35,648 nt of DNA, from assembly GCA_025934105.1 (NCBI GenBank), contig JAICYS010000025.1:1-35648 (forward strand), written 5' to 3'. The DNA comes from Myxococcota bacterium (lineage in GTDB: Bacteria; Myxococcota_A; Polyangia; Fen-1088). Below the pieces are notes generated by a model. That model made no database searches. It was not told where the DNA came from and saw only the letters and a program-made list of their open reading frames with translations. How positions within the stretch are numbered: position 1 is the first letter of the stretch; every line of letters starts with the position of its first letter. Below, piece after piece: positions 5,103 through 30,031 of the stretch. The position numbers and the translations under genes are program-made.

Positions 5103-6989
5103 CTACTTGCCGTACCCGGCGCTCACGATGTTCGCCTGGATGGCCGAGTCGGTCGCGTCGGACGGATACCCGGCCACGATGGCTCCTTCGTAGAAGGTGC
5201 CCTGGCTCAGCGTGTTGTTGCTGTAGCAGCAGTCGCCGCCGCTGCCGAGAACGATCGATCCCTGCTTCTTCGCCGGGTTGTATCCGGGCGGAACCGAGCC
5301 GCTGTAGAACGTGCTCAGCGCGCCGGTGGTCGCGTCGGCCCCCTTGAGCGCGAACGTCCCCGTTCCGTTGTTCTTCTCCATCGCGGTGACGTACGTGTAC
5401 GCCAGGGTGGGATCGCTGGAGCTCTGACCGCCGCCCCCCTTCGCGTAGAGGCCCCCTTCCAGGTCGGCCATGACCCAGGGGCCCGAGCCGGCGCCGGTGC
5501 CCCAGATCGTGCAGCTGCTGAAGTTGAGCGCGTCCATCGACGGCCCCGCGACGTACATGCGGCTGGTCTCTCCATTGCCGTAGTCGAAGCAGCACCCGCT
5601 GCCGTAGTGCTTGCCGCTGGTGACCATGTAGATGCCTTGCGGCGAGCTGCCCAGCGGCATGCCGGACTTGGAGCCGTCCCGCCAGTACGCCTGGCTGGTC
5701 TTCATGTAGAGCGAATAGACCTTGTGACCGCCCACCGTGAACGATTCCTGGGTGGCGTTCGACGCCGTCTGGCCCTGGTGCCCGCCGACGGTGCTGTCCG
5801 GCGTCTCGGCTTCGACGAAATTGCCGTGGCCCGACTGATCGTAAACGATCGTGATCGTGCAGCTCGATCCCGAGCAGAACGCGTCCTGCGTGGCGGTGTC
5901 GGCCAGGCCACCCGGGCTGACGACGCCGATGTCCTTGGTCATGCCGTCCGCGCGCTTGACTTGATAGAGGTTGCCGCTGTACGAGCCGAGGAGCGCGCGC
6001 ACCGTGCTGTGCGCGGCGACGCAGGGCGTGCTGGCGGCCGCGTAGATGTCGCAGGGGGCCATGCCGCCGCCCGACGAGCCGGCGCTGCCCCCCGACCCTG
6101 CGTTGGCACCGCCACCGCCACCTTTACCTCCGGAACCCGTGCTGCCGCCGGACGCAGAACCGCCGGCCGCGCCGCCTCGGCCGCCGGTGCCGGTGGCGCC
6201 GCCCGACGCATGGCCGCCGGTGCCGATCGCGCCGCCCGAACCCGTGCTGCCGCCCGAGCCCGAGCTGCTGCTCTTCTGCAGCACGATGGAGCCGGTGACC
6301 GGTTGAATCTTGCCGGTCGGGGCCACCGTCAGCGTGGCGTTGCCCGACGCGCAGTACGAGTAGTCCACGTTTCCGTCCGTGTTCAGCCCGTTGCCGGCCG
6401 TCGTGTAGGCGCCGCTGGCCGCCGCCCACGGTGAAACCACGCCCAGGCCGCCGTTCTGGTTGACGGTCGCCACGCAGCCGCACTGCCCGCTGCTGCCGGT
6501 CGAGCAGGTCACCGACGTCCAGCCGAGGGCCTGCACGGTGCCCGCCACATTCGCGCAGGGGACGTTCACCGACGACACCGACAGGCACTTGGGCGCCAGC
6601 GGGAAGCTGATCGACCCAGTCGTGACGGTGTTGTCGGCGTACGTGCCGTCGGAGTTGGCCGTCCACGTGCCGGTGACGTGCAGCGACCCGGTCACCGGCA
6701 CCGTCGAGCAGCCCAGGCTGGCCAGGGTGACGTCCATGTCGCCCGACACGGAGAGGCAGGACGACGAGACCGTCCAGCTCCCCACCACCGAGCCACCGCA
6801 CGGTGTCAGGCCGGTGCAACTCGGCGCGCCGCCCCCCGCGCCGGTGGTCCCACCGGTGAGGGTGGATCCTCCCGAGCCGGGCGTTCCGCCGGTGCCGCTC
6901 GGCAGGCCGTTCGAGCTGCTGCATCCGCCGTTTGCCATCGCCGCGGCGAGGGCCATCGAGCCGACAAGTCCAATAAGTGTGGGTCGCAT
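5103..6989 (-). CDS. Secreted/lipoprotein-like GH54 alpha-L-arabinofuranosidase (AbfB catalytic domain), copy 1, with Cys-rich N-terminal module and Gly-rich linker
   Basis: PCDIYAAASTPCVAAHSTVRALLGSYSGNLYQVKR...DAFCSGSSCTITIVYDQSGHGN...GSGCCFDYGNGETS...GPWVMADLEGGLYAKG...GSIVLGSGGDCCYSNN...GTFYEGAIVAGYPSD matches the GH54 AbfB catalytic domain. Confidence 0.92.
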   Translation of the reverse strand: MRPTLIGLVGSMALAAAMANGGCSSSNGLPSGTGGTPGSGGSTLTGGTTGAGGGAPSCTGLTPCGGSVVGSWTVSSSCLSVSGDMDVTLASLGCSTVPVTGSLHVTGTWTANSDGTYADNTVTTGSISFPLAPKCLSVSSVNVPCANVAGTVQALGWTSVTCSTGSSGQCGCVATVNQNGGLGVVSPWAAASGAYTTAGNGLNTDGNVDYSYCASGNATLTVAPTGKIQPVTGSIVLQKSSSSGSGGSTGSGGAIGTGGHASGGATGTGGRGGAAGGSASGGSTGSGGKGGGGGANAGSGGSAGSSGGGMAPCDIYAAASTPCVAAHSTVRALLGSYSGNLYQVKRADGMTKDIGVVSPGGLADTATQDAFCSGSSCTITIVYDQSGHGNFVEAETPDSTVGGHQGQTASNATQESFTVGGHKVYSLYMKTSQAYWRDGSKSGMPLGSSPQGIYMVTSGKHYGSGCCFDYGNGETSRMYVAGPSMDALNFSSCTIWGTGAGSGPWVMADLEGGLYAKGGGGQSSSDPTLAYTYVTAMEKNNGTGTFALKGADATTGALSTFYSGSVPPGYNPAKKQGSIVLGSGGDCCYSNNTLSQGTFYEGAIVAGYPSDATDSAIQANIVSAGYGK

Positions 6990-14131: not shown

Positions 14132-14823
14132 AGTCGGCGTACGGCGACCTCAAAGAGGAGGCGTTCCGCGCGAACCTGGAGATCCCGCGGCGGGGCCTGG
14201 CGATCTACACGTTCGGCAACGTGTCGGCCTTCGACGCCGGCCGGGCGGTGTTCGCCATCAAGCCCAGCGGCGTCGCCTACGAACAGATGACCGCCGACGA
14301 CATGGTGATCGTCGATTTGGACGCCCAGGTCGTCGACGGGCGGATGCGGCCCTCGTCGGACACCAAGACCCATGCGGCACTGTACCGGGCGTTCCGTGGC
14401 GTGGGCGGCATCGTTCACACGCACTCGACGTACGCGACGGCCTGGGCGCAGGCCGGTCAGGCGATCCCGATCTACGGGACGACCCACGCCGACCATCTGG
14501 CGGAGGACGTCCCCTGCACGGCCATCATGACCGCCGCCGCCGTCGAGCGCGATTACGAAGCCGAGACCGGCGCGCAGATCATCGATTGCTTCCGCACGCG
14601 CGATCCGCAGCAGGTGCAGATGGTGCTGGTGGCGGGCCACGGCGCGTTCGCCTGGGGCAAGACGGCCGAGAAGGCCGTGTACCACGCCGTGGTGCTGGAA
14701 GAGCTGGCCAAGATGGCGTCCATCACCCGCACGCTGGACCCGCGCGCGGCGCGGCTGCCCGATTATCTGGTGCGCAAGCACTTCCAACGAAAGCACGGAA
14801 AGAACGCCTATTACGGCCAGTAA
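14128..14823 (+). CDS. araD: L-ribulose-5-phosphate 4-epimerase
   Basis: ATG at 14128 within the 12832..14823 ORF: MKSAYGDLKEEAFRANLEIPRRGLAIYTFGNVSAFDAGRAVFAIKPSGVAYEQM...HTHSTYATAWAQAGQAIPIYGTTHADHLAEDVPCT; class II aldolase/AraD family. Confidence 0.96.
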   Translation: MKSAYGDLKEEAFRANLEIPRRGLAIYTFGNVSAFDAGRAVFAIKPSGVAYEQMTADDMVIVDLDAQVVDGRMRPSSDTKTHAALYRAFRGVGGIVHTHSTYATAWAQAGQAIPIYGTTHADHLAEDVPCTAIMTAAAVERDYEAETGAQIIDCFRTRDPQQVQMVLVAGHGAFAWGKTAEKAVYHAVVLEELAKMASITRTLDPRAARLPDYLVRKHFQRKHGKNAYYGQ

Positions 14824-14918
14824 CGCGCAGGCCTCGCAAGGTTGTCGGCTCTCATGACTGGTCCCCGGCGCCGCTTTCGCGGGGCCTCCTCGTTTCGAGA
14901 TTGATTGGAGACGTTGCA

Positions 14919-16148
14919 ATGACAAAGACTCGCATTTTCTTGGCAGTTTCCCTGGCGATGTCGGCCGGCACGGGCGCCGTGTCCTGTACGTCGTTTTCGT
15001 CCGGCAGCGACGGCTCGGGCGGCTCCAGCCCCACCAGCGGCTCGGGCGGCTCCGGCCAGACCGGCACCGGCGGCAGCTCGGCCGGCGTCACGACCTATCT
15101 GGACGTCGGCAGCGTTCCGGCCGGCACGCTGCCCTGCGACGTCCTCGGGGCGGCAGGGAACGCGTGCGTCGCGGCCCACAGCACGGTGCGGGTCCTGGTG
15201 TCGGGCTACACCGGGCCTCTGTACCAGATCTGCAAGGGAACCTTCACCGCCGGGCCGAACTCCTGCACCAGCGGCATGACCATGGACATCGGCTCTGTCG
15301 CCGGCTACGCCGACGCGGCTTCGCAGGACACGTTCTGCAGCGGCACCTGCACCATCTCGATCATCTACGACCAGTCGGGAATGAAAAACGATCTGCGGCC
15401 CGCTCCCGCCGGCGGGCAGAAGAAGACACCCGACAACCCGGTGTCGGCCACCGCCCTGCCGATCATGGCCGGCGGCCACAAGGCCTACGGCGTGTTCATC
15501 AAGGCCGGCCTCGGCTACCGCTCGGGCTGCACCGGGTGCATGAATTCGACCCCGACCGGCACGGCCAAGGGCGACGATCCGGAGACCGAGTACATGGTGG
15601 TCAGCCAGAGCGCCTTCAACAACAGCTGTTGCTTCGATTACGGCAACGCCGAGGTGTCGGCGATCGACGACGGAAACGGGACGATGGAAGCCGTCTATTA
15701 CGGCTCCGGCGTCATCTGGGGCACCGGCTTTCCGGGCGGGCGAACCTATCCCTGGATCATGGCCGACCTCGAGAACGGCCTCTATGCCGGCTGGGAAAAG
15801 AACCAGGATCAGGCCATCTCGACCAACACGCCCATCATGTTCCCGTTCATCTCGGGCGTCGTGGTCGGCGATACCGCGGACAAGAACGGCGGCAAAGGAC
15901 GATTCGCGATCTACGCCGGGGACGCCACGCAAGGAGCTCTCATCATCAAGTACGACGGGATCCGTCCGGCCAAGCCCGGCTACGTTCCCATGCAAAAGCA
16001 GGGCTCGATCATCCTCGGCATCGGCGGCGACAACAGCAACGGCGCCACCGGTCAATTCTTCGAAGGCGTGATGGCGACTGGCGCGGCCAGCACCGACACG
16101 CTGATGTCTTTGCAGGCCAGCATCGTTGCCGCCAATTACGGACAATAG
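14919..16148 (+). CDS. Secreted/lipoprotein-like GH54 alpha-L-arabinofuranosidase, copy 2
   Basis: MTKTRIFLAVSLAMSAGTGAVSCTSFSSGS signal/Cys; LPCDVLGAAGNACVAAHSTVRVLVSGYTGPLYQICKG...SCCFDYGNAEVS...PWIMADLENGLYAGW...GSIILGIGGDNSNGATGQFFEGVM. Confidence 0.92.
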   Translation: MTKTRIFLAVSLAMSAGTGAVSCTSFSSGSDGSGGSSPTSGSGGSGQTGTGGSSAGVTTYLDVGSVPAGTLPCDVLGAAGNACVAAHSTVRVLVSGYTGPLYQICKGTFTAGPNSCTSGMTMDIGSVAGYADAASQDTFCSGTCTISIIYDQSGMKNDLRPAPAGGQKKTPDNPVSATALPIMAGGHKAYGVFIKAGLGYRSGCTGCMNSTPTGTAKGDDPETEYMVVSQSAFNNSCCFDYGNAEVSAIDDGNGTMEAVYYGSGVIWGTGFPGGRTYPWIMADLENGLYAGWEKNQDQAISTNTPIMFPFISGVVVGDTADKNGGKGRFAIYAGDATQGALIIKYDGIRPAKPGYVPMQKQGSIILGIGGDNSNGATGQFFEGVMATGAASTDTLMSLQASIVAANYGQ

Positions 16149-18506: not shown

Positions 18507-19937
18507 ATGACAAAGATTCGTTCTCTAATGGCCGCGTCCCTTCTCCTGTCAGCCGGCGCCTGGGCGACGTCATGCGCGTCGTTCTCGTCCGGCGGCGGTG
18601 ACGGGTCGGGGGGCAGCGGCCCGTCGACGGGTTCCGGCGGCACCAGCAGCGGCTCGGGCGGTCAGAACTCGGGCTCGGGCGGCGAAAGCAGCGGCAGCGG
18701 CGGAACCACCGGAGCCGGCGGCGTCTCCAGCAGCGGCGGCAACACCGGATCGGGCGGCGTCGCGAACTCCGGCGGCAGCACCGGGGCCGGCGGCACGATC
18801 AGCGGGGTGGGTGGCCACGGCATCGGCGGAACCGGGGCCGGCGGCAGCACGACCGGCAGCGGGGGCACGATGGGCGCCGGCGGCACGATGGGCACCGGCG
18901 GCATGGCCGCCGCGACGTTGCCCTGCGACGTCCTCAACGCGGCCGGGAACAATTGCGTCGCCGCCCACAGCACGGTCCGCCTGCTGGTGTCCGGCTACAC
19001 CGGGCCTCTGTACCAGGTCTGCAAGGGAACCTTCAAACCCGGCCCCAGCTCGTGCAGCGGGACGACCAAGGACATCGCATCCGTCGACGGTTACGCCGAC
19101 GCCGCCTCCCAGGACACCTTCTGCTCCGGCGGCTCCTGCACGATCTCGATCATCTATGACCAGTCCGGCATGAAGAACGACCTCCGGCCCGCGCCGGCCG
19201 GCGGCACCGTGAAGTCGCCGGACAATCCGGTGTCGGCCACCGCGCTGCCGCTCATGGCCGGCGGTCACAAGGTCTATGGCGTCTCCATCAAGACCGGAAC
19301 CGGCTATCGCTCGGGCTGCAACGCGTGCATGAACACCAAGCCGAACGGCACCGCCACCGGCGACCAGCCGGAGACCGAGTACATGGTCACCAGCCAGAAC
19401 GGCTACAACAACGGCTGCTGCTTCGATTACGGCAACGCCGAAACCTCTGCCAACGACGACGGCAACGGCACCATGGAGGCGGTGTACTACGGCTCCGGCG
19501 TCGTCTGGGGGACTGGCTCTCCGGGCGGCCGCAACAACCCGTGGGTCATGGCAGACCTGGAGAACGGCCTTTACGCCGGGTGGCAAAACAATTCGGACCA
19601 GAACATCACGACCAACACGCCGCTCAAATTCGACTACGTCACCGCGGTGCTGGTCGGCGACACGGCGGACAAGAACAGCGGCAAGGGGCGGTTCGCGCTT
19701 TACGGCGGCGACGCCACCCAGGGGCCGCTCTCCGTCAAGTACGACTCGGTCCGGCCCAACAAGACCGGGTACGCTCCCATGAAGAAGCAGGGCTCGATCA
19801 TCCTCGGCATCGGCGGCGACAACAGCAACGGCGACACCGGTGAGTTCTTCGAGGGCGTGATGGCGAGCGGCGCGGCCAGCATGACGACATTGAACGCCAT
19901 GCAGGCGGCCATCGTGACGGCCGGCTACGGGAAATAG
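18507..19937 (+). CDS. Secreted/lipoprotein-like GH54 alpha-L-arabinofuranosidase, copy 3, with long Gly/Ser/Thr linker
   Basis: MTKIRSLMAASLLLSAGAWATSCASFSSGG...; LPCDVLNAAGNNCVAAHSTVRLLVSGYTGPLYQVCKG...GCCFDYGNAETS...PWVMADLENGLYAGW...GSIILGIGGDNSNGDTGEFFEGVM. Confidence 0.93.
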   Translation: MTKIRSLMAASLLLSAGAWATSCASFSSGGGDGSGGSGPSTGSGGTSSGSGGQNSGSGGESSGSGGTTGAGGVSSSGGNTGSGGVANSGGSTGAGGTISGVGGHGIGGTGAGGSTTGSGGTMGAGGTMGTGGMAAATLPCDVLNAAGNNCVAAHSTVRLLVSGYTGPLYQVCKGTFKPGPSSCSGTTKDIASVDGYADAASQDTFCSGGSCTISIIYDQSGMKNDLRPAPAGGTVKSPDNPVSATALPLMAGGHKVYGVSIKTGTGYRSGCNACMNTKPNGTATGDQPETEYMVTSQNGYNNGCCFDYGNAETSANDDGNGTMEAVYYGSGVVWGTGSPGGRNNPWVMADLENGLYAGWQNNSDQNITTNTPLKFDYVTAVLVGDTADKNSGKGRFALYGGDATQGPLSVKYDSVRPNKTGYAPMKKQGSIILGIGGDNSNGDTGEFFEGVMASGAASMTTLNAMQAAIVTAGYGK

Positions 19938-20888: not shown

Positions 20889-20961
20889 CTAGGAGCAATG
20901 CCGTCAGGCAACGGTGAGCGGCAGCGAACCATGCCCGACGACGTGCCGCCCGCAGGCGGCC
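20889..20961 (-). repeat. Two-hairpin 75-bp-class repeat, unit C (inverted relative to units A/B)
   Basis: ctaggagcaatgccgtcaggcaacggtgagcggcagcgaaccatgcccgacgacgtgccgcccgcaggcggcc; reverse complement closely matches units at 24888 and 24967. Confidence 0.85.
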
Positions 20962-21398
20962 TAGTAGTTACCCATGTAATAGATCTGCGAGTTGTTGGGC
21001 ATCACGCATTCCAGTTCCGTCGAGTACGTGCCGGCCGTCAGGGGGATGTTGAAGTACCAGAGCCCGCCGCTGCTGCTGGTCGGGAAGTAGACCGACGAGG
21101 AACCGAAGACGCTGGTGGCCTTCATGATGCAGCTGGTGACGCCGCTGCTGGTGCCGATCTGAAAGTTGTAGAGCCCGTCCTGGAAGGGCACCGAACACAT
21201 CCCCCGCGCGGTGGTCCCGGACGCGTTGGTGAACGCGCCGGCCCCGTACTGGTCGCCGGAGATCAAGTTCCAGGGCGAGCTGTTTTTCACCAGCTTGCAG
21301 TCGAAGGCCTGCGTGGCGAGCATGTTTGCGGAGGCCACGGACGAGACTCCGACGGCGCACACCGCAACGACCATTCCAATCAGTAGCGAGCGTTTCAT
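20961..21398 (-). CDS. Hypothetical small secreted protein
   Basis: MKRSLLIGMVVAVCAVGVSSVASANMLATQAFDCKLVKNSSPWN... signal peptide; RBS-like aaggag upstream of ATG at 21398. Confidence 0.7.
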   Translation of the reverse strand: MKRSLLIGMVVAVCAVGVSSVASANMLATQAFDCKLVKNSSPWNLISGDQYGAGAFTNASGTTARGMCSVPFQDGLYNFQIGTSSGVTSCIMKATSVFGSSSVYFPTSSSGGLWYFNIPLTAGTYSTELECVMPNNSQIYYMGNY

Positions 21399-21616
21399 TT
21401 GCGTTCTCCTTGTTCGGACGATGTAAGACCTGTGACGTGGCGGCTGCGCGGCTGCGCCGGCCACTACCGCCTCGGTTATCAGGTCGCGCGGGCGTCGGCA
21501 CAACCCAGGCAAATCCTTGGCAACGCTCGCGCCCGCGGACGGAACGGAAACGATCACCCGCTCGCACGGCTGTCCTCACGCGAGGTTCCGAGCGGGGCCG
21601 GAACGGGGCGCGAAGT

Positions 21617-24463
21617 TCAGCCGCCCGCGTGCGACGGTCCGGGGGAAGCTTCCCTGGTCCTGGCCAGCAGGCGGCCCAGAAATCCCGCCGAGTCGGCTTC
21701 GCCGGCCGACAACGGTCGCGACCGCAACCCATCCAGGGACTGCCGTGCTTCCGCCGTTCGCCCCAGCAGCTCCAGCGCCAGCGTCTTCAAAAGCTGGGCC
21801 TGGACGGCGCGCGGACCGGCGTCCACGGCAGCCAGGTGCCCGACCGCGCCCGGATAGTCGCGTTCGGCGATGGCGCGCGCCCCCATTTCAAACTCCAGTT
21901 CGGAATCCCGTTGGCCGCCGTCGTAAAGACGCGCCGCGATGCTCTGAACGGCCGGTTCGGTCCCCGTCAACAGCAACGGAAGCGTCTGCAGCGACGAGCG
22001 GGTCAGCACCGTGTACAAGATCTCGATCGAACGCAGGCGGTTCCAGACAAACAGATCGTCGAGAAACGCCTCCGGCATGAAATATTCGGCCGTCCTTTCG
22101 CGCAGGGCGGCCGGCCAGAGTGCCCGGATGTAGGCGCTGGTCTCGAACCGCCGCCGCGCGCCGCGCGGGTCCATCCAGGACCGATAGCTCGGATCGCCGA
22201 AGTCGCCGTCGGTGGGGTACTGGGCCCGCAGCCGGCCCGGGTGATCGTCGTCGAGCGGCGCGACCCCCTCGGTCCAGGCATCCATGGTCGGCGCATCCGC
22301 CAGGAACGTCGCGCCCAAGGACTCGGGCCGCTCGAAGCCCAGCGCGGCCAGCTCGCGCCCCACGCGGGGGTCGCGCCATTGCGCCGCGAACTGCTCCTCG
22401 GGGATGGGCCCCGCCACGCCCCGCGTCCCGGCCAGCATCCATTGCAAGCCCGCCCCCGTCCACAGCGTGCAGTCCGGAAACTCGTCACAAAACCCGCGCA
22501 TGATGGCCTTTGTCTCGGACAGCCACAGCATGTTGACCGGCAGCCAGTAGGTCACCACGCCTCCCTCTCGCAGCCGGTCGTGAATGAGGCCGAAGTACTC
22601 GCGCGAATAGAGGTTGGTGACCCCCGCGCCGCGCGGCGGGGGCGGCTCGGCGGTGATGAGATCGTACTTTCGGTCGGTCGTTTGCAGAAAAAACCGCCCG
22701 TCTTCCACGTGGACCCGCACCCGCGGGTCGCTGAGCGGCGGCCGGGCGTCGGGAAACGGAAGCGAACCGAGCTGGAGGATGTCCCGCGAAATGTCGACCA
22801 CGTCGATCGAGGTCAGCTGCCGCGAGTCCGTCAGCGCCTTGGCCGTGTTGCCGATGCCATAGCTGATCAGCAGGGCGTCGCGCGCCCGGGGATTCACCGC
22901 CAGCGCCCAGTACGCATACAGCTTCATGTACCGGCGGCCGCGATAGGTGGTGGCCGACATCGAGTGCCCGTTGGTCATGAGCCGGTAATTGAGCGGCTGG
23001 CCATGGAACGACTCGCGCAGGTACATGACGGTCTCGGTGAGTCCCTCGCGCATCGCGAGCAGCTCGGGGCGCGACGACTGGTATCTCTCCAGTACCAGCG
23101 GCACGAAGTGGTTCTTCATCCTTCCGAACGGAAACAGGGCCGCCGTGACCGCCAGCAGGGCCAGCGCCGGAACGAACACTTTGCGGCGGCCGCCGGCCAG
23201 GCGCCCGCCCGCTTGGGCCAGAGCGATCAGGCAGCCGACGACGCCGTACCCCAGCACCGCCGCGAACAGCGTCTTTTCCATTCCGAGGCGCGGCAGAACC
23301 GCGAAGCCGACCACCAGCGCCCCCACCATTGCCCCCGTCGTGTTCGCCACCGTCAACCGCCCCGTCGCCTCGGCGGCCTCCGCGCGGCGCTGGTGCTCGG
23401 CGGCCCCGAGCAGGGCAAACAGCCCACCGGAGAAGACCGCCGCCGGCAACATCAAGCGCAGGAACAGGAGGGCGGATCCGGCGGTGTCGTCGGTCGTGTA
23501 GGTCAGCGCCCCGACCCGCGGACTGAAGGCGACGTAACAGAGCTCGACCGAGAGGCCGGCGAGCAGCGCGACGACCGCGGCAAACCGGTGCGCGCGGGGG
23601 TCGCGCCCGAGCCAGAGGCCGGCGCCGACACTGCCGAGCCCGATGCCCAGCAAGACCGTGGCCAGCATGAGCGCGAAGATGAAGCTGGTCCCGAACACGA
23701 ACAGCTGAAGAAAACGGAACCAGACGACCTCAAGGCCGACCAGCATGGCGCCGGCCAGAAAGGCGGCGCCCAGCAGATACGCCGAGCCCCTGCCCGCCGG
23801 CCGCGCGCTCGCGGAGTCGGGCTCGGGGTCGGGGCCGGGGCGGGCCGGTTCGCCCAGCCGCGAGGCCAGCACCAGCGCCGTGGCGGCCGCCGCCAGGTCG
23901 AGGCCGCCCGCGACCAGCGCCGCGCCGCGCAGGCCGAACCACTCGATGAGACAGAGCTCCCCGACGACGGCCCCCGTCATCCCGCCGACGGTGTTCCAGC
24001 CGTAGAGCGCGCCCAGAACCCGGCCGAAGCGGCCGTCTTCCGTGGTGGCCGCCTTGGCGATGAGGGGCAGCGTCAGTCCCATCGCCGTCGCCGGAACGCA
24101 CAGGATCGAAAACGCCACCGTGACGCGCAGGAGATTCACGGTCCAGGGCCGCGCGGTCAGGTGCGTGAACAGGCGCGCCAGAGTCGGGCTCACCGCCGGC
24201 AGCGCGAAGACGATCGCAACGCCCGCGACGGCCACGACGGTCTCGATGAGGCCGTAGGCGCGCAGCGGGCGCTTGAATCGGACGCCGTGGCGCGCGGCGA
24301 TGGCGTTGCCCAGCGCCAATCCGGCCATGAAGCTGGCCAGCACGATGCTGGAAGCCCATGCGCTGTTTCCCAGCGTGAGCCCCATCAGCCGGAACCAGAT
24401 GACTTCGAACAGGACGCCCGCTGCGCCGGAAAGGAAGAAAATCACGGTCAAGAGCAGCGCCAT
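21617..24463 (-). CDS. Fused MFS-like membrane domain / spermidine synthase-like methyltransferase-fold protein
   Basis: N-terminal MALLLTVIFFLSGAAGVLFEVIWFRLMGLTLGNSAWASSIVLASFMAGLALGN..., second half DALLISYGIGNTAKALTDSRQLTSIDVVDISRDILQL...YDLITAEPPPPRGAGVTNLYSREYFGLIHDRLREGGVVTYWLP. Confidence 0.88.
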   Translation of the reverse strand: MALLLTVIFFLSGAAGVLFEVIWFRLMGLTLGNSAWASSIVLASFMAGLALGNAIAARHGVRFKRPLRAYGLIETVVAVAGVAIVFALPAVSPTLARLFTHLTARPWTVNLLRVTVAFSILCVPATAMGLTLPLIAKAATTEDGRFGRVLGALYGWNTVGGMTGAVVGELCLIEWFGLRGAALVAGGLDLAAAATALVLASRLGEPARPGPDPEPDSASARPAGRGSAYLLGAAFLAGAMLVGLEVVWFRFLQLFVFGTSFIFALMLATVLLGIGLGSVGAGLWLGRDPRAHRFAAVVALLAGLSVELCYVAFSPRVGALTYTTDDTAGSALLFLRLMLPAAVFSGGLFALLGAAEHQRRAEAAEATGRLTVANTTGAMVGALVVGFAVLPRLGMEKTLFAAVLGYGVVGCLIALAQAGGRLAGGRRKVFVPALALLAVTAALFPFGRMKNHFVPLVLERYQSSRPELLAMREGLTETVMYLRESFHGQPLNYRLMTNGHSMSATTYRGRRYMKLYAYWALAVNPRARDALLISYGIGNTAKALTDSRQLTSIDVVDISRDILQLGSLPFPDARPPLSDPRVRVHVEDGRFFLQTTDRKYDLITAEPPPPRGAGVTNLYSREYFGLIHDRLREGGVVTYWLPVNMLWLSETKAIMRGFCDEFPDCTLWTGAGLQWMLAGTRGVAGPIPEEQFAAQWRDPRVGRELAALGFERPESLGATFLADAPTMDAWTEGVAPLDDDHPGRLRAQYPTDGDFGDPSYRSWMDPRGARRRFETSAYIRALWPAALRERTAEYFMPEAFLDDLFVWNRLRSIEILYTVLTRSSLQTLPLLLTGTEPAVQSIAARLYDGGQRDSELEFEMGARAIAERDYPGAVGHLAAVDAGPRAVQAQLLKTLALELLGRTAEARQSLDGLRSRPLSAGEADSAGFLGRLLARTREASPGPSHAGG

Positions 24464-24887
24464 CAGGCCACCTTTCGTCGGTCGCCGCGCGCTGGCGCGG
24501 GGAGCGGCCGGGCACTATAGCACCGCGCAATCCAGCGACCGGGACCACGGCGGAGCGCCGTCGGTCCTGCTCCGTGAAGAGCGCGAACGAAGTGGCCGGG
24601 CCCGGCGGCGTCAGGGTCGAAACGAACGGCGGGCAGGGCGGGTGGCCCAATGAAGGCCGTCGTCGTCGCGTGTCCTTTGCGGCCCAGCTCGAAGTGGCGG
24701 CAAACCAGTTGCCCAAAGCCGTCCCCGTGCTCGTATCTGGCGCTCCCGTCCAACCGGAAAGGCGCCACAACCAGGCCGGCCGCCGTTGCGACGGCCCAAG
24801 AACAGCGCTTCGCCCGCGAAAAAGCGTGCTTTGCGTCATTGGCGAACGCCCTCCACCGCCGGAGAGCCAATCTCCGGCGGGCGACTG

Positions 24888-24962
24888 GGCCGCTTCCGGG
24901 CGGCACGTCGTCCGGCATGGTTCGCTGCCGCTCACCGTTGCCTTACGGCAACGCCCTCCTAG
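24888..24962 (+). repeat. 75-bp two-hairpin repeat, unit A
   Basis: ggccgcttccgggcggcacgtcgtccggcatggttcgctgccgctcaccgttgccttacggcaacgccctcctag. Confidence 0.92.
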
Positions 24963-24966
24963 CCTA

Positions 24967-25041
24967 GGCCGCTTCCGGGCGGCACGTCGTCGGGCATGGT
25001 TCGCTGCCGCTCACCGTTGCCTTACGGCAACGCCCTCCTAG
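24967..25041 (+). repeat. 75-bp two-hairpin repeat, unit B (79-bp period with unit A; one visible mismatch)
   Basis: ggccgcttccgggcggcacgtcgtcgggcatggttcgctgccgctcaccgttgccttacggcaacgccctcctag. Confidence 0.92.
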
Positions 25042-26221: not shown

Positions 26222-28071
26222 TCATGCGGAGGACGGCCGCAGCAGCCACCCTGACGGCGGTGCTGCTGGCTCTGTCCGCGCCGGCCGGCGCGCAAACCGC
26301 GGCGGCGGTCAGCATCTCCGTCGACGCCACGGCGGCCGGCAGCCCGCTGGAACGCATCTGGGCCTTCCACGGCTACGACGAGCTGAATGACACGACCACG
26401 CCGGAAGGGGAGGCGCTGCTGCAGGCGGTCGTCGCCGCTCACACCGCGCCGGTGCACGTTCGCAACCACTTCATACTCAACACGGGCGACGGAGCGCCCG
26501 TCATGAAGTGGGGCTCGACCAACGTCTACACCGAGGACGCCGCCGGCAACCCGGTCTACAGCTGGGCGCTCACCGACGGGATTCTCGACGCGATCACCGG
26601 GGCCGGCGCGTTTCCGTTGGTGGAGCTCGGCTTCATGCCCGAGGCGCTGTCCACGCATCCGACCCCCTACCAGAACAGCAGCGTCACCTCGCTGGACGGC
26701 GGCTGCTTCTACCCGCCCGCCGACCCGGCCAAGTGGGCCGGCCTGATCCGCGCCTGGGCCGCCCACGCGAACGGCCGCTATCCGGGCGTGGAAGCCAACT
26801 GGCTCTGGGAGCTCTGGAACGAACCCGACATCGGCTACTGGAAGGGGACCTTCGCGGACTACGCCAACCTCTACGACGTCACCGAATCGGCGTTGCACCA
26901 GGTGCTCCCGAACGCGGTCCTCGGCGGCCCGGCCGTGGCCGGTGCCGGCGGCAGCTTCTTGATACAGTTCCTGCAACACTGCGCGACCGGCACCAACGCC
27001 GTCACCGGCCAGACGGGAACGCGCCTCGATCTCGTCACTTTTCACGCCAAGGGCGGGGTCAGCATGGCCGGCGACCACGTCGAGATGGACCTCGGCAACC
27101 AGCTCCGCCTGCATCGCAGCGGCTTCCAGACGGTCGCGCGCTTCCCGCAGTTCAAGCAGACGCCGATCTACGTCACCGAGGCCGACCCCGACGGCTGCGC
27201 CGCCTGTTCCGTCAGCAGCCAACCGGCGGACGCCTACCGCACCTCGCCCGCCTACGGCGCCTACGAAGTCGCGATGATGAAGCACTCGCTGGAACTGGAG
27301 GCGCAGGTCGGCGTCACGCTGGGCGGGCTGCTCACCTGGGCGTTCACGTTCCCGGGGACGCCGATGTTCTCCGGCTATCGCGTGCTGGCCAGCAACGGCG
27401 TGGGGCTGCCCGTGTTCGGCGCGTTCAAGCTGCTGGGCCGGCTGGCCGGCATGCGGCTGCCCCTCTCCAGCGACGGCGCCCGCCCGCTCGACGACATCCT
27501 GGCGAACGGCGTGCGCGGTCAGCCCGACGTGGACGGAATCGCCGCGCGGGACGGCTCGACGATTCTGGTGCTGGTCTGGAATTACCATGACGACCTGGTC
27601 CCCGCGCCCGCGACGCCGGTCCACCTGGCCATTCAGGTGCCGGCCGGGTTCGGGGACGCGGCCCGCATCTCGCACCTGCGCGTCGACGACACCCATGGAA
27701 ACGCGGTCACGGCCTGGGCCGCGCAAGGCATGCCCGCGAACCCGTCGGCGGCGCAGCTCGCAGCGCTGCAGCAAGCGATGGATCCGGCGCCGATCGCCCC
27801 CGACGCGGCCGTCGCGGTGCCGCCCGGCGGCTCGTTGGCGGTGGATTTCGAACTTCCCCGATTCGGCGTGTCACTGATCGCCGTCTCGCCCTGGTCTGGA
27901 CCGGTCGACGCCGGGCCTGGCAAGCCTCCGGCGGGCGGCGGCAGCGGGTGCGGTTGCGCGACGATCGCGCCGATCCCCGGCCTCGGCGGCCTGCTTCTCT
28001 GCGGCGCCGGTTTGGCGGCCGTCCGGCGCCGCCGCCGGCGCGTCGCGTCAGCACAGGATGAGAGCAACTAG
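26218..28071 (+). CDS. GH39-type glycoside hydrolase (beta-xylosidase-like) with MYXO-CTERM-like C-terminal sorting tail
   Basis: VHVRNHFILNTGDGAPVMKWGSTNVYTEDAAGNPVYSWALTDGILDAI...WLWELWNEPDIGYWKGTFADYANLYD...QTPIYVTEADPDGCAAC; WNEPD acid/base and TEAD nucleophile positions; tail GCGCATIAPIPGLGGLLLCGAGLAAVRRRRRR. Confidence 0.85.
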   Translation: MIMRRTAAAATLTAVLLALSAPAGAQTAAAVSISVDATAAGSPLERIWAFHGYDELNDTTTPEGEALLQAVVAAHTAPVHVRNHFILNTGDGAPVMKWGSTNVYTEDAAGNPVYSWALTDGILDAITGAGAFPLVELGFMPEALSTHPTPYQNSSVTSLDGGCFYPPADPAKWAGLIRAWAAHANGRYPGVEANWLWELWNEPDIGYWKGTFADYANLYDVTESALHQVLPNAVLGGPAVAGAGGSFLIQFLQHCATGTNAVTGQTGTRLDLVTFHAKGGVSMAGDHVEMDLGNQLRLHRSGFQTVARFPQFKQTPIYVTEADPDGCAACSVSSQPADAYRTSPAYGAYEVAMMKHSLELEAQVGVTLGGLLTWAFTFPGTPMFSGYRVLASNGVGLPVFGAFKLLGRLAGMRLPLSSDGARPLDDILANGVRGQPDVDGIAARDGSTILVLVWNYHDDLVPAPATPVHLAIQVPAGFGDAARISHLRVDDTHGNAVTAWAAQGMPANPSAAQLAALQQAMDPAPIAPDAAVAVPPGGSLAVDFELPRFGVSLIAVSPWSGPVDAGPGKPPAGGGSGCGCATIAPIPGLGGLLLCGAGLAAVRRRRRRVASAQDESN

Positions 28072-28108
28072 TTTAACAAGCCGGCCGCGCTCGCGACGAA
28101 TGAGGGGC

Positions 28109-30031
28109 ATGACCCGTTCCCCCTTGGGCAATCGTCGCTTTTCCCTGCTCTCGCTCGTCACCGTCGCCGCCCTGGCCACGACCTGGGGCGCATGTAGCTC
28201 GAGCTCACCTCCGGCCACCACGTCGGGGTCGGGCGGTAGCTCGCAAAGCGGTGGCTCAACCGGTTCGGGCGGCTCGTCGCCCGGCGCTGGAGGCTCCGGT
28301 CCGTCCTGCACGAACGTTTCCGCCTGCGGCGGCGACGTGCCCGGGACGTGGACGGTCAGCTCGTCCTGTCTCAACATGAGCGGCATGCTGGACATCTCGG
28401 CCGTCGGCATCAACTGCACCACCGCCGGGCTCACCGGTTCGCTGCAGGTGACCGGGTCGCTGGTGTTGAAGTCGGACGGCTCGTACACCGACAACACGCA
28501 CACGACCGGGACCGAGCATTTGAGCATGGGCGCGCCCTGCCTCATCCTGTCGGGCACCAAGACCACCTGCGACGGCCTGACCGGGCCGCTGATGGGCCTC
28601 GGCTACTCCGCGGTCACCTGCACCAACAACACCTCCACGGGCGGGTGCGACTGCACCGCCACCGTCGACCAGCCGGGCGGCATCGGTTACGTGTCCAGCT
28701 TGGCCTCGACCACCGGCGGCTACACGACCTCCGGCAACACCTTCACCGTCGACTCGCAGGCGAATTACTCATACTGCGTCGCGCAGAGCAAGCTGACGTT
28801 GACGCCGACCACCCCGAACACGACCGGCACGATCGTGTTGCAGGGCTCCGGGTCCAGCGGTTCGGGCGGCACCGCCGGCGCGGGCGGCACGCCGGGCGCC
28901 GGCGGCACGCCGGGATCGGGCGGCAAGGGAGGAGCGGGCGGCCACGGCTCGGGCGGCAACGGCGGCCACGCCTCGGGCGGCAACGGCGGCGCGACGGCCA
29001 GCGGCGGCTCGATGGGATCGGGCGGCAGCTCCGGGATGCGCACCGACGGTCCCTGCGACATCTACGCGGCGGGGCAAACGCCTTGCGGCGCGGCCTACAG
29101 CACGATCCGGGCGCTCTCGAAGTCGTACACGGGCCCGCTCTACCAGGTCCGCAACGGCAGCTCGAACATGAACACCGGCTCGGGCGGCATGACCAAGGAC
29201 ATCCCCCAGACGTCGGACGGGTTCGCCGACACCTCGGTCCAGGACGCGTTCTGCAGCGGCACCACCTGCACCTTCTCGGTGCTCTACGACCAGTCGGGCA
29301 ACAAGAACGACCTCAAGTCGGCGCCGGCGGGCCTCTCGAACGGCGGCTCGTACGCGGCCATGCCGGACTTCGAGTCCAATGCGACCAAGGGGATGCTGAC
29401 CGTCGGCGGCCACAAGGTCTATTCGCTCTACATGAACACCCGCGAGGGGTACCGGACGCCCTTGAACGTCAAGGCCACCGGCGTCGCGCTGAACAACAAT
29501 CCGCAGGGCATCTACGAGCTGGCGGACGGGACGCACTCGGGCAGCGCCTGCTGCTGGGATTTCGGCAGCGTCTCACCGGATCCGACCAAGTACGTCACCA
29601 TGAACACCCTGTTCTTCGGAACGGCCACCTTCTGGGACCGCGGCGCCGGCAGCGGCCCCTGGTTCATGGGCGACTTCGAGGGGGGCGTCTGGGCAGGCGG
29701 CTCCTCGTCCGGGACCGGCAACACCAACAGCATGAACCCGTCGCTGAAGGTGCCGTTCGCCCTCGGTATCCTCCACACGCCGGTCGGCAAGTACGCGCTT
29801 CGGATGGCCGACATCAAGACCGCCACCGACCTCACGACCGCCTATGACGGAGCCATCCCGCAGGGCAAGACCTGGGGCAACGCCGGCGGCATCGTGCTGG
29901 GCGTGGGCGGCGACAACAGCAACAACTCGGCCGGGACGTTCTACGAGGGCGCGCTCACCAACGGCGTCCCGTCGAACGCCACCGACCTGGCCATCATGCA
30001 GAACATCCAGGCCGCGGGTTACGGGAAGTAA
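28109..30031 (+). CDS. Secreted/lipoprotein-like GH54 alpha-L-arabinofuranosidase-like protein, copy 4, with Cys-rich N-terminal module and Gly-rich linker
   Basis: GPCDIYAAGQTPCGAAYSTIRALSKSYTGPLYQVRNG...ACCWDFGSVSPD...GPWFMGDFEGGVWAGG...GGIVLGVGGDNSNNSAGTFYEGAL; start could be 28058, 28100 or 28109. Confidence 0.88.
   Translation: MTRSPLGNRRFSLLSLVTVAALATTWGACSSSSPPATTSGSGGSSQSGGSTGSGGSSPGAGGSGPSCTNVSACGGDVPGTWTVSSSCLNMSGMLDISAVGINCTTAGLTGSLQVTGSLVLKSDGSYTDNTHTTGTEHLSMGAPCLILSGTKTTCDGLTGPLMGLGYSAVTCTNNTSTGGCDCTATVDQPGGIGYVSSLASTTGGYTTSGNTFTVDSQANYSYCVAQSKLTLTPTTPNTTGTIVLQGSGSSGSGGTAGAGGTPGAGGTPGSGGKGGAGGHGSGGNGGHASGGNGGATASGGSMGSGGSSGMRTDGPCDIYAAGQTPCGAAYSTIRALSKSYTGPLYQVRNGSSNMNTGSGGMTKDIPQTSDGFADTSVQDAFCSGTTCTFSVLYDQSGNKNDLKSAPAGLSNGGSYAAMPDFESNATKGMLTVGGHKVYSLYMNTREGYRTPLNVKATGVALNNNPQGIYELADGTHSGSACCWDFGSVSPDPTKYVTMNTLFFGTATFWDRGAGSGPWFMGDFEGGVWAGGSSSGTGNTNSMNPSLKVPFALGILHTPVGKYALRMADIKTATDLTTAYDGAIPQGKTWGNAGGIVLGVGGDNSNNSAGTFYEGALTNGVPSNATDLAIMQNIQAAGYGK

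Follow-up and report, generated by a model that had tools for sequence, protein, structure and literature searches.

A short repeat with two hairpins occurs three times in a 35,648-nt stretch of DNA from a Myxococcota bacterium (hereafter the window, meaning that whole stretch), twice in tandem and once in inverse orientation about 4 kb away, and this raises the question of what the repeat is and how it reached these positions. A preliminary description of the sequence had proposed either a family resembling repetitive extragenic palindromes and bacterial interspersed mosaic elements (REP/BIME) or miniature inverted-repeat transposable elements (MITEs), or else a conserved structured RNA. Our analysis indicates, with a probability of roughly 80%, that the repeat is a non-autonomous element with CTAG-targeted insertion. 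It is probably a miniature mobile element in the broad sense, being dispersed, non-coding, high-copy, and flanked by a 4-bp target duplication.

The window's own genome (G000) is a metagenome-assembled genome (MAG) of 5.99 Mb in 472 contigs, estimated to be 94.5% complete. Genome copies were counted by pattern search, and the counts are hence lower bounds. With up to three mismatches allowed, at least 119 copies were found in G000 (62 forward and 57 reverse, compared with 0 for a reversed-pattern control), and additional divergent copies were picked up with a left-end pattern, so the repeat belongs to a multi-copy family and is not a one-off duplication in the window. An alignment of 102 distinct copies gave the consensus CTAG-GCCGCCTCCGGGCGGCACGTCGTCGGGCATGGTTCGCTGCCGCTCACCGTTGCCTTACGGCAACGCCCTC-CTAG, with 70 bp between the two CTAGs; CTAG at both sides is the commonest end combination (40 units), and the others carry point variants. 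In a DNA search of 39 relatives, about 11 clear copies were present in G001, a MAG of the same genus (Chersky.8_6), mostly at 92-95% identity to the second tandem unit of the window (unit B), and nearly all of them belong to one distinct subfamily with a shorter core, GGTTCGCTTCGCTCACC. The same search found no copies in G002, which is also of this genus, and marginal matches only in the remaining genomes. An exact-pattern scan covering both subfamilies in 84,980 species representatives, a collection that possibly excludes the window's own genome, returned matches confined to Chersky.8_6 contigs, and there was no match to the element in viral contigs or in plasmid and phage collections. The family is therefore known so far from one genus only.

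Insertion can be read most directly downstream of ettA (locus L092), where the sequence runs CACTAG-[70 bp]-CTAGCCGG. In the orthologous loci, whose ettA genes are 85-86% identical to that of L092, CACTAG passes directly into GGACATG (G001) or CCACTATG (G002) and on into the same next gene, with no element in between. Alignment of the L092 protein with the solved EttA structure 4fin extends to residue 553 of 555, so the stop of this gene is native. The simplest reading of these sequences is that the element inserted into an existing CTAG with a 4-bp duplication.

Stop codons are also involved at other copies. Using gene stops placed with a simple codon-usage gene caller, we found that the TAG of the upstream gene lies exactly in the left CTAG of 13 copies, while the TAG of a downstream gene on the opposite strand lies exactly in the right CTAG of 10 copies. 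Altogether, 23 of the 32 gene stops inside elements fall in a bounding CTAG, compared with one third expected from random reading-frame cuts (p about 1e-5). The inverted copy in the window (unit C) is among the 13, and its overlap with the stop of a small secreted protein gene, pointed out in the preliminary description, comes down to the gene's TAG falling inside the left CTAG. The word itself is scarce, with 6 occurrences in the window versus 22.7 expected, five of them part of the repeat, and the 37 CTAGs outside elements in 219 kb of flanks are intergenic (20), at stop codons (9), or coding (8). As CTAG is rare and outside elements lies mostly between genes or at stops, target choice would steer the element to harmless places. 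We propose that the element inserts at CTAG and duplicates its target, and that the duplication would restore CTAG, leaving the host gene with its stop codon and full C-terminus. No cellular function, whether as terminator or RNA, is needed to explain this pattern, which illustrates how a miniature element can reach about 120 copies cheaply, through a target word that is rare in genes and a duplication that rebuilds the stop.

The alternative of a function at gene 3' ends, as a structured RNA or terminator maintained by selection, draws on the hairpins and on the position of the copies. The left hairpin (GCCGCC-tccg-GGCGGC) and the right hairpin (CGTTGCC-ttac-GGCAACG) have stems that are conserved (95% and 97% paired cells, respectively) and loops that vary; the earlier remark that changes concentrate in the hairpins extends to the whole family, in which loops and the terminal CTAG vary most. 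When the consensus is folded as DNA, both strands are more stable than shuffled sequences (z of -2.3 and -2.7), and copies lie between convergent genes more often than between divergent ones (24 vs 5). However, this enrichment would be expected if copies are located at gene ends, and the split of 13 left to 10 right stops reveals no preferred orientation to the adjoining gene. Compensatory pairs are close to absent (1/542 and 0/635 cells, or 1/1,177 in total), so that the structure is conserved without covariation support, and these few pairs are too little to support or separate alternative folds. Rfam returned no family at gathering score, a sub-threshold match to GA-cis being judged chance, and the ettA position is not common to the sister species. 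We consider a maintained RNA or terminator very unlikely, and the suggestion of a conserved structured RNA was not borne out beyond the two hairpins themselves.

The hairpins and the arrays bear on a second alternative, in which the repeat is a single-strand HUH/Y1 (IS200/IS605-like) element. Its left CTAG would be the target and its right CTAG both its own cleavage site and the next unit's target, giving head-to-tail arrays, and the hairpins would mark its ends. This would produce an identical CTAG boundary pattern, and it agrees with the presence of two subterminal hairpins and the absence of terminal inverted repeats (TIRs) in the element, for which register-locked identity is 4/20 and the local match is no better than 88% of shuffles. 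It also agrees with the arrays, all of which, as far as read, are head-to-tail, mostly with a 74-bp period and with neighbours having one common CTAG. However, a profile search for Y1_Tnp (PF01797), which would recognize an IS200/IS605 transposase or a REP-associated tyrosine transposase (RAYT), found none in G000, G001, or G002, while 5/14 control genomes scored. Nor does the strand of the copies follow the local GC skew (40/82, although this is a weak test), and the similarity of units within arrays points to local duplication rather than repeated insertion. Identity is 0.95 within arrays versus 0.91 between loci, a difference reached by 0/2000 shuffles, and because of this closer likeness, arrays probably grow locally from single units. 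We therefore regard an HUH/Y1 element as unlikely. Under CTAG-targeted insertion, single units would expand locally into head-to-tail arrays after they have inserted. Many arrays are located at contig ends, which may in part explain the fragmentation of the G000 assembly. Beside a full copy in L028 (G000:C48, about 6266-6293) we observed a CTAG-bounded, near-perfect palindrome of two right ends (AAGGGCGTTGCC-TTAC-GGCAACGCCCTC), a hint that an element could be built from right ends only.

The same observations weigh on a REP/BIME family moved by a RAYT. About 120 copies of a short, palindromic, intergenic repeat would be typical of such a family, but no RAYT gene was found in G000 or the two congeners, there is no GTAG or CGTC tag at the foot of a hairpin (the boundary being CTAG), and the 70-bp unit holds two different hairpins. 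In addition, the element forms head-to-tail arrays, with no head-to-head pairs among those examined, unlike REP dimers, most of which are head-to-head (PMC3733652). A REP/BIME family is thus extremely improbable, and from the first proposal only the broad likeness to MITEs stands, since the dispersal, high copy number, and 4-bp target duplication are shared with them and the TIRs of a classical MITE are not.

Which enzyme moves the element is much less certain than the CTAG-targeted insertion. The element would be moved in trans, and the most likely agent is an IS5-like DDE transposase whose gene lies elsewhere. Such an enzyme would explain the target choice and is our leading guess because IS5 and MITEPsy1 both duplicate CTAG-type targets. 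IS5 duplicates YTAR, with CTAG in 15/24 listed cases, and CTAG is a rare word in bacterial genomes (PMC5493358); MITEPsy1, a 100-nt non-coding element that derives from ISPsy2 in Pseudomonas syringae, has CTAG or YTAA as its target and duplicates 4 nt (PMC3189936). Several points weigh against this picture. The element lacks TIRs, which a DDE transposase normally needs. The sole DDE_Tnp_1 transposase found in G000 (C186:8690-9214) does resemble the IS5_2 model, in favour of an IS5-like enzyme, but it falls below the NCBIfam cut-off, is single-copy, and has no recognizable ends that match the element, its own ends not being definable. Neither a longer nor an autonomous element sharing the ends of the 70-bp element turned up in the loci checked; G000 is an incomplete MAG, and the enzyme may be absent from this assembly. 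Finally, the empty-site evidence comes from a single locus. Left-end copies without the core were considered as a possible parent and rejected: some are copies that have diverged, been truncated, or been cut by a contig end, the others are chance matches unrelated to the family, and no cargo element is among them. It is also conceivable, if doubtful, that a TIR-less, hairpin-ended element of 70 bp follows an undescribed mobilization route that uses neither a RAYT nor a recognizable TIR-binding DDE enzyme, with direct arrays formed via the shared CTAG and amber stops as a safe-site strategy.

A second element in the same genome shows the same CTAG duplication. Family B, a textbook MITE of 157 bp with a near-perfect TIR, TGCACCGCCGTCGAAATAGCGTCA (24/27), is flanked by CTAG at either end in the majority of copies (L213-L225, e.g., L213 530-686), and CTAG-duplicating transposition has therefore occurred in G000. 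This genome holds 138 family B ends, with none in G001 or G002, and it also contains a mini form of 58 bp and what look like CTAG-TGCGGTGCA-CTAG footprints. A 1,698-bp segment in L212 (1966-3663; G000:C341:83465-85162) has family B ends with CTAG on both sides and encodes a TetR-type regulator together with a SnoaL-like protein; it has no transposase gene and is a MITE-bounded cargo element.

Within the window, the layout of the three units (Table 1) is largely as first described. Units A and B differ at one base within 24888-24962 and 24967-25041 (C/G at 24913/24992), these spans are separated by the 4 nt CCTA, and unit C is a reverse-strand copy at 20889-20961. A 23-nt core, GGCATGGTTCGCTGCCGCTCACC, has 3 exact occurrences in the window and 0 in shuffles. 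The tandem period of units A and B is 79 bp, owing to an additional CCTAG, versus the usual array period of 74, and the right end of unit C reads GCATTGCTC in place of GCAACGCCCTC. The extra 11-nt match next to unit B is present as reported, but it is too short for a firm assignment.

Table 1. Positions of repeat units, their hairpins, and nearby genes in the 35,648-nt window.
Feature	Position	Strand	Description
Unit A	24885..24962	+	CTGG 24885-24888 (decayed CTAG), 70-bp element 24889-24958, right CTAG 24959-24962
Unit B	24964..25041	+	Left CTAG 24964-24967, 70-bp element 24968-25037, right CTAG 25038-25041
Unit C	20889..20964	-	Left CTAG 20961-20964, 68 bp 20960-20893, right CTAG 20892-20889
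Left subterminal hairpin, unit B	24968..24983	+	GCCGCTTCCGGGCGGC; family consensus GCCGCC-tccg-GGCGGC
Right subterminal hairpin, unit B	25015..25032	+	CGTTGCC-ttac-GGCAACG, then CCCTC and CTAG
CCGTCAGGCAA	25045..25055	-	Unproven candidate for the remains of another, inversely oriented right end; matches right hairpin of unit C
Small secreted protein gene	20961..21557	-	TAG stop within left CTAG of unit C; no match in Pfam
Spermine/spermidine-synthase-domain membrane protein	21617..24463	-	PF01564, E 1.6e-13; between the inverted copies, outside the element
Alpha-L-arabinofuranosidase B catalytic-domain protein	5103..6989		PF09206; Gly/Ser-rich linker repeats
Alpha-L-arabinofuranosidase B catalytic-domain protein	14586..16148		PF09206; Gly/Ser-rich linker repeats
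Alpha-L-arabinofuranosidase B catalytic-domain protein	18507..19937		PF09206; Gly/Ser-rich linker repeats
Alpha-L-arabinofuranosidase B catalytic-domain protein	28058..30031		PF09206; Gly/Ser-rich linker repeats

The inverted arrangement of unit C and the tandem pair had also been taken to bracket a 4-kb segment, which raises the possibility of a composite mobile segment that carries the spermidine-synthase region between copies at 20889 and 24885-25041. The arrangement itself is real, and the spermine-synthase orthologue of G001 (L117; 64% protein identity) has different neighbours, in favour of such a segment, with no copy in the roughly 6 kb examined around it. However, about 82 array loci are spread over 6 Mb, and at this density chance alone would place at least two in a 35.6-kb window about 9% of the time; the outer ends show nothing beyond the CTAG present at every copy. 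With no sign of joint movement, we give a composite segment hardly any credence, and the bracketing looks like coincidence.

Other features of these genomes were noted along the way. Family C is a non-autonomous element of about 233 bp with ends CAATGCYGRTCGGTTAAGG, which we take to be IS4-like (L152/L024 = G000:C427:107-339; L154, L155, L148). It lands in the junctions of 70-bp-element arrays, and one complete copy (C427) lies within a junction of a tandem unit array. Family C was considered as a CTAG-duplicating relative of the 70-bp element, and this idea was dropped; the flanks of the complete copy instead fit a probable 10-bp target duplication, CTCCTAGGCC. The right end of unit C, GGCATTGCTCCTAG (window 20889-20902), equals the end of family C, and a recombinant or a chance mutation could account for this. 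The four arabinofuranosidase proteins fall in one 25-kb stretch beside GH39 and aldose epimerase genes, which is probably a plant-polysaccharide locus.

Compared with known systems, the family fits neither REPs nor MITEs in the strict sense and matches no known family. Non-autonomous elements of the IS200/IS605 type have no TIR, carry subterminal hairpins, and have a tetranucleotide at the left flank. The 70-bp element resembles them in all three respects, but it differs in that no Y1 transposase was found in three congeners. MITEPsy1 is likewise short and non-coding and has a CTAG target with a 4-nt duplication, while the 70-bp element has no TIRs, and no parent for it was found in the loci checked. 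The CTAG target is also common to IS5, which has its own transposase and TIRs, with no demonstrable similarity between its ends and those of the 70-bp element. RAYT-associated REP/BIME elements and REPINs, marked by GTAG, are similarly small, palindromic, high-copy, and intergenic, but the 70-bp element has neither RAYT nor GTAG and combines two different hairpins with direct arrays. CGTC-tagged REPs, which are likewise palindromic without a dedicated transposase, are single short hairpins that have stems of 8-9 bp, end in CCA tails, and occur mostly as head-to-head dimers (PMC3733652). The 70-bp element contains CGTC internally, but it is longer, bounded by CTAG, and arranged in direct arrays. 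It offers a clean natural system for studying the movement of TIR-less, hairpin-ended repeats without a RAYT, a matter that concerns the CGTC REPs as well.

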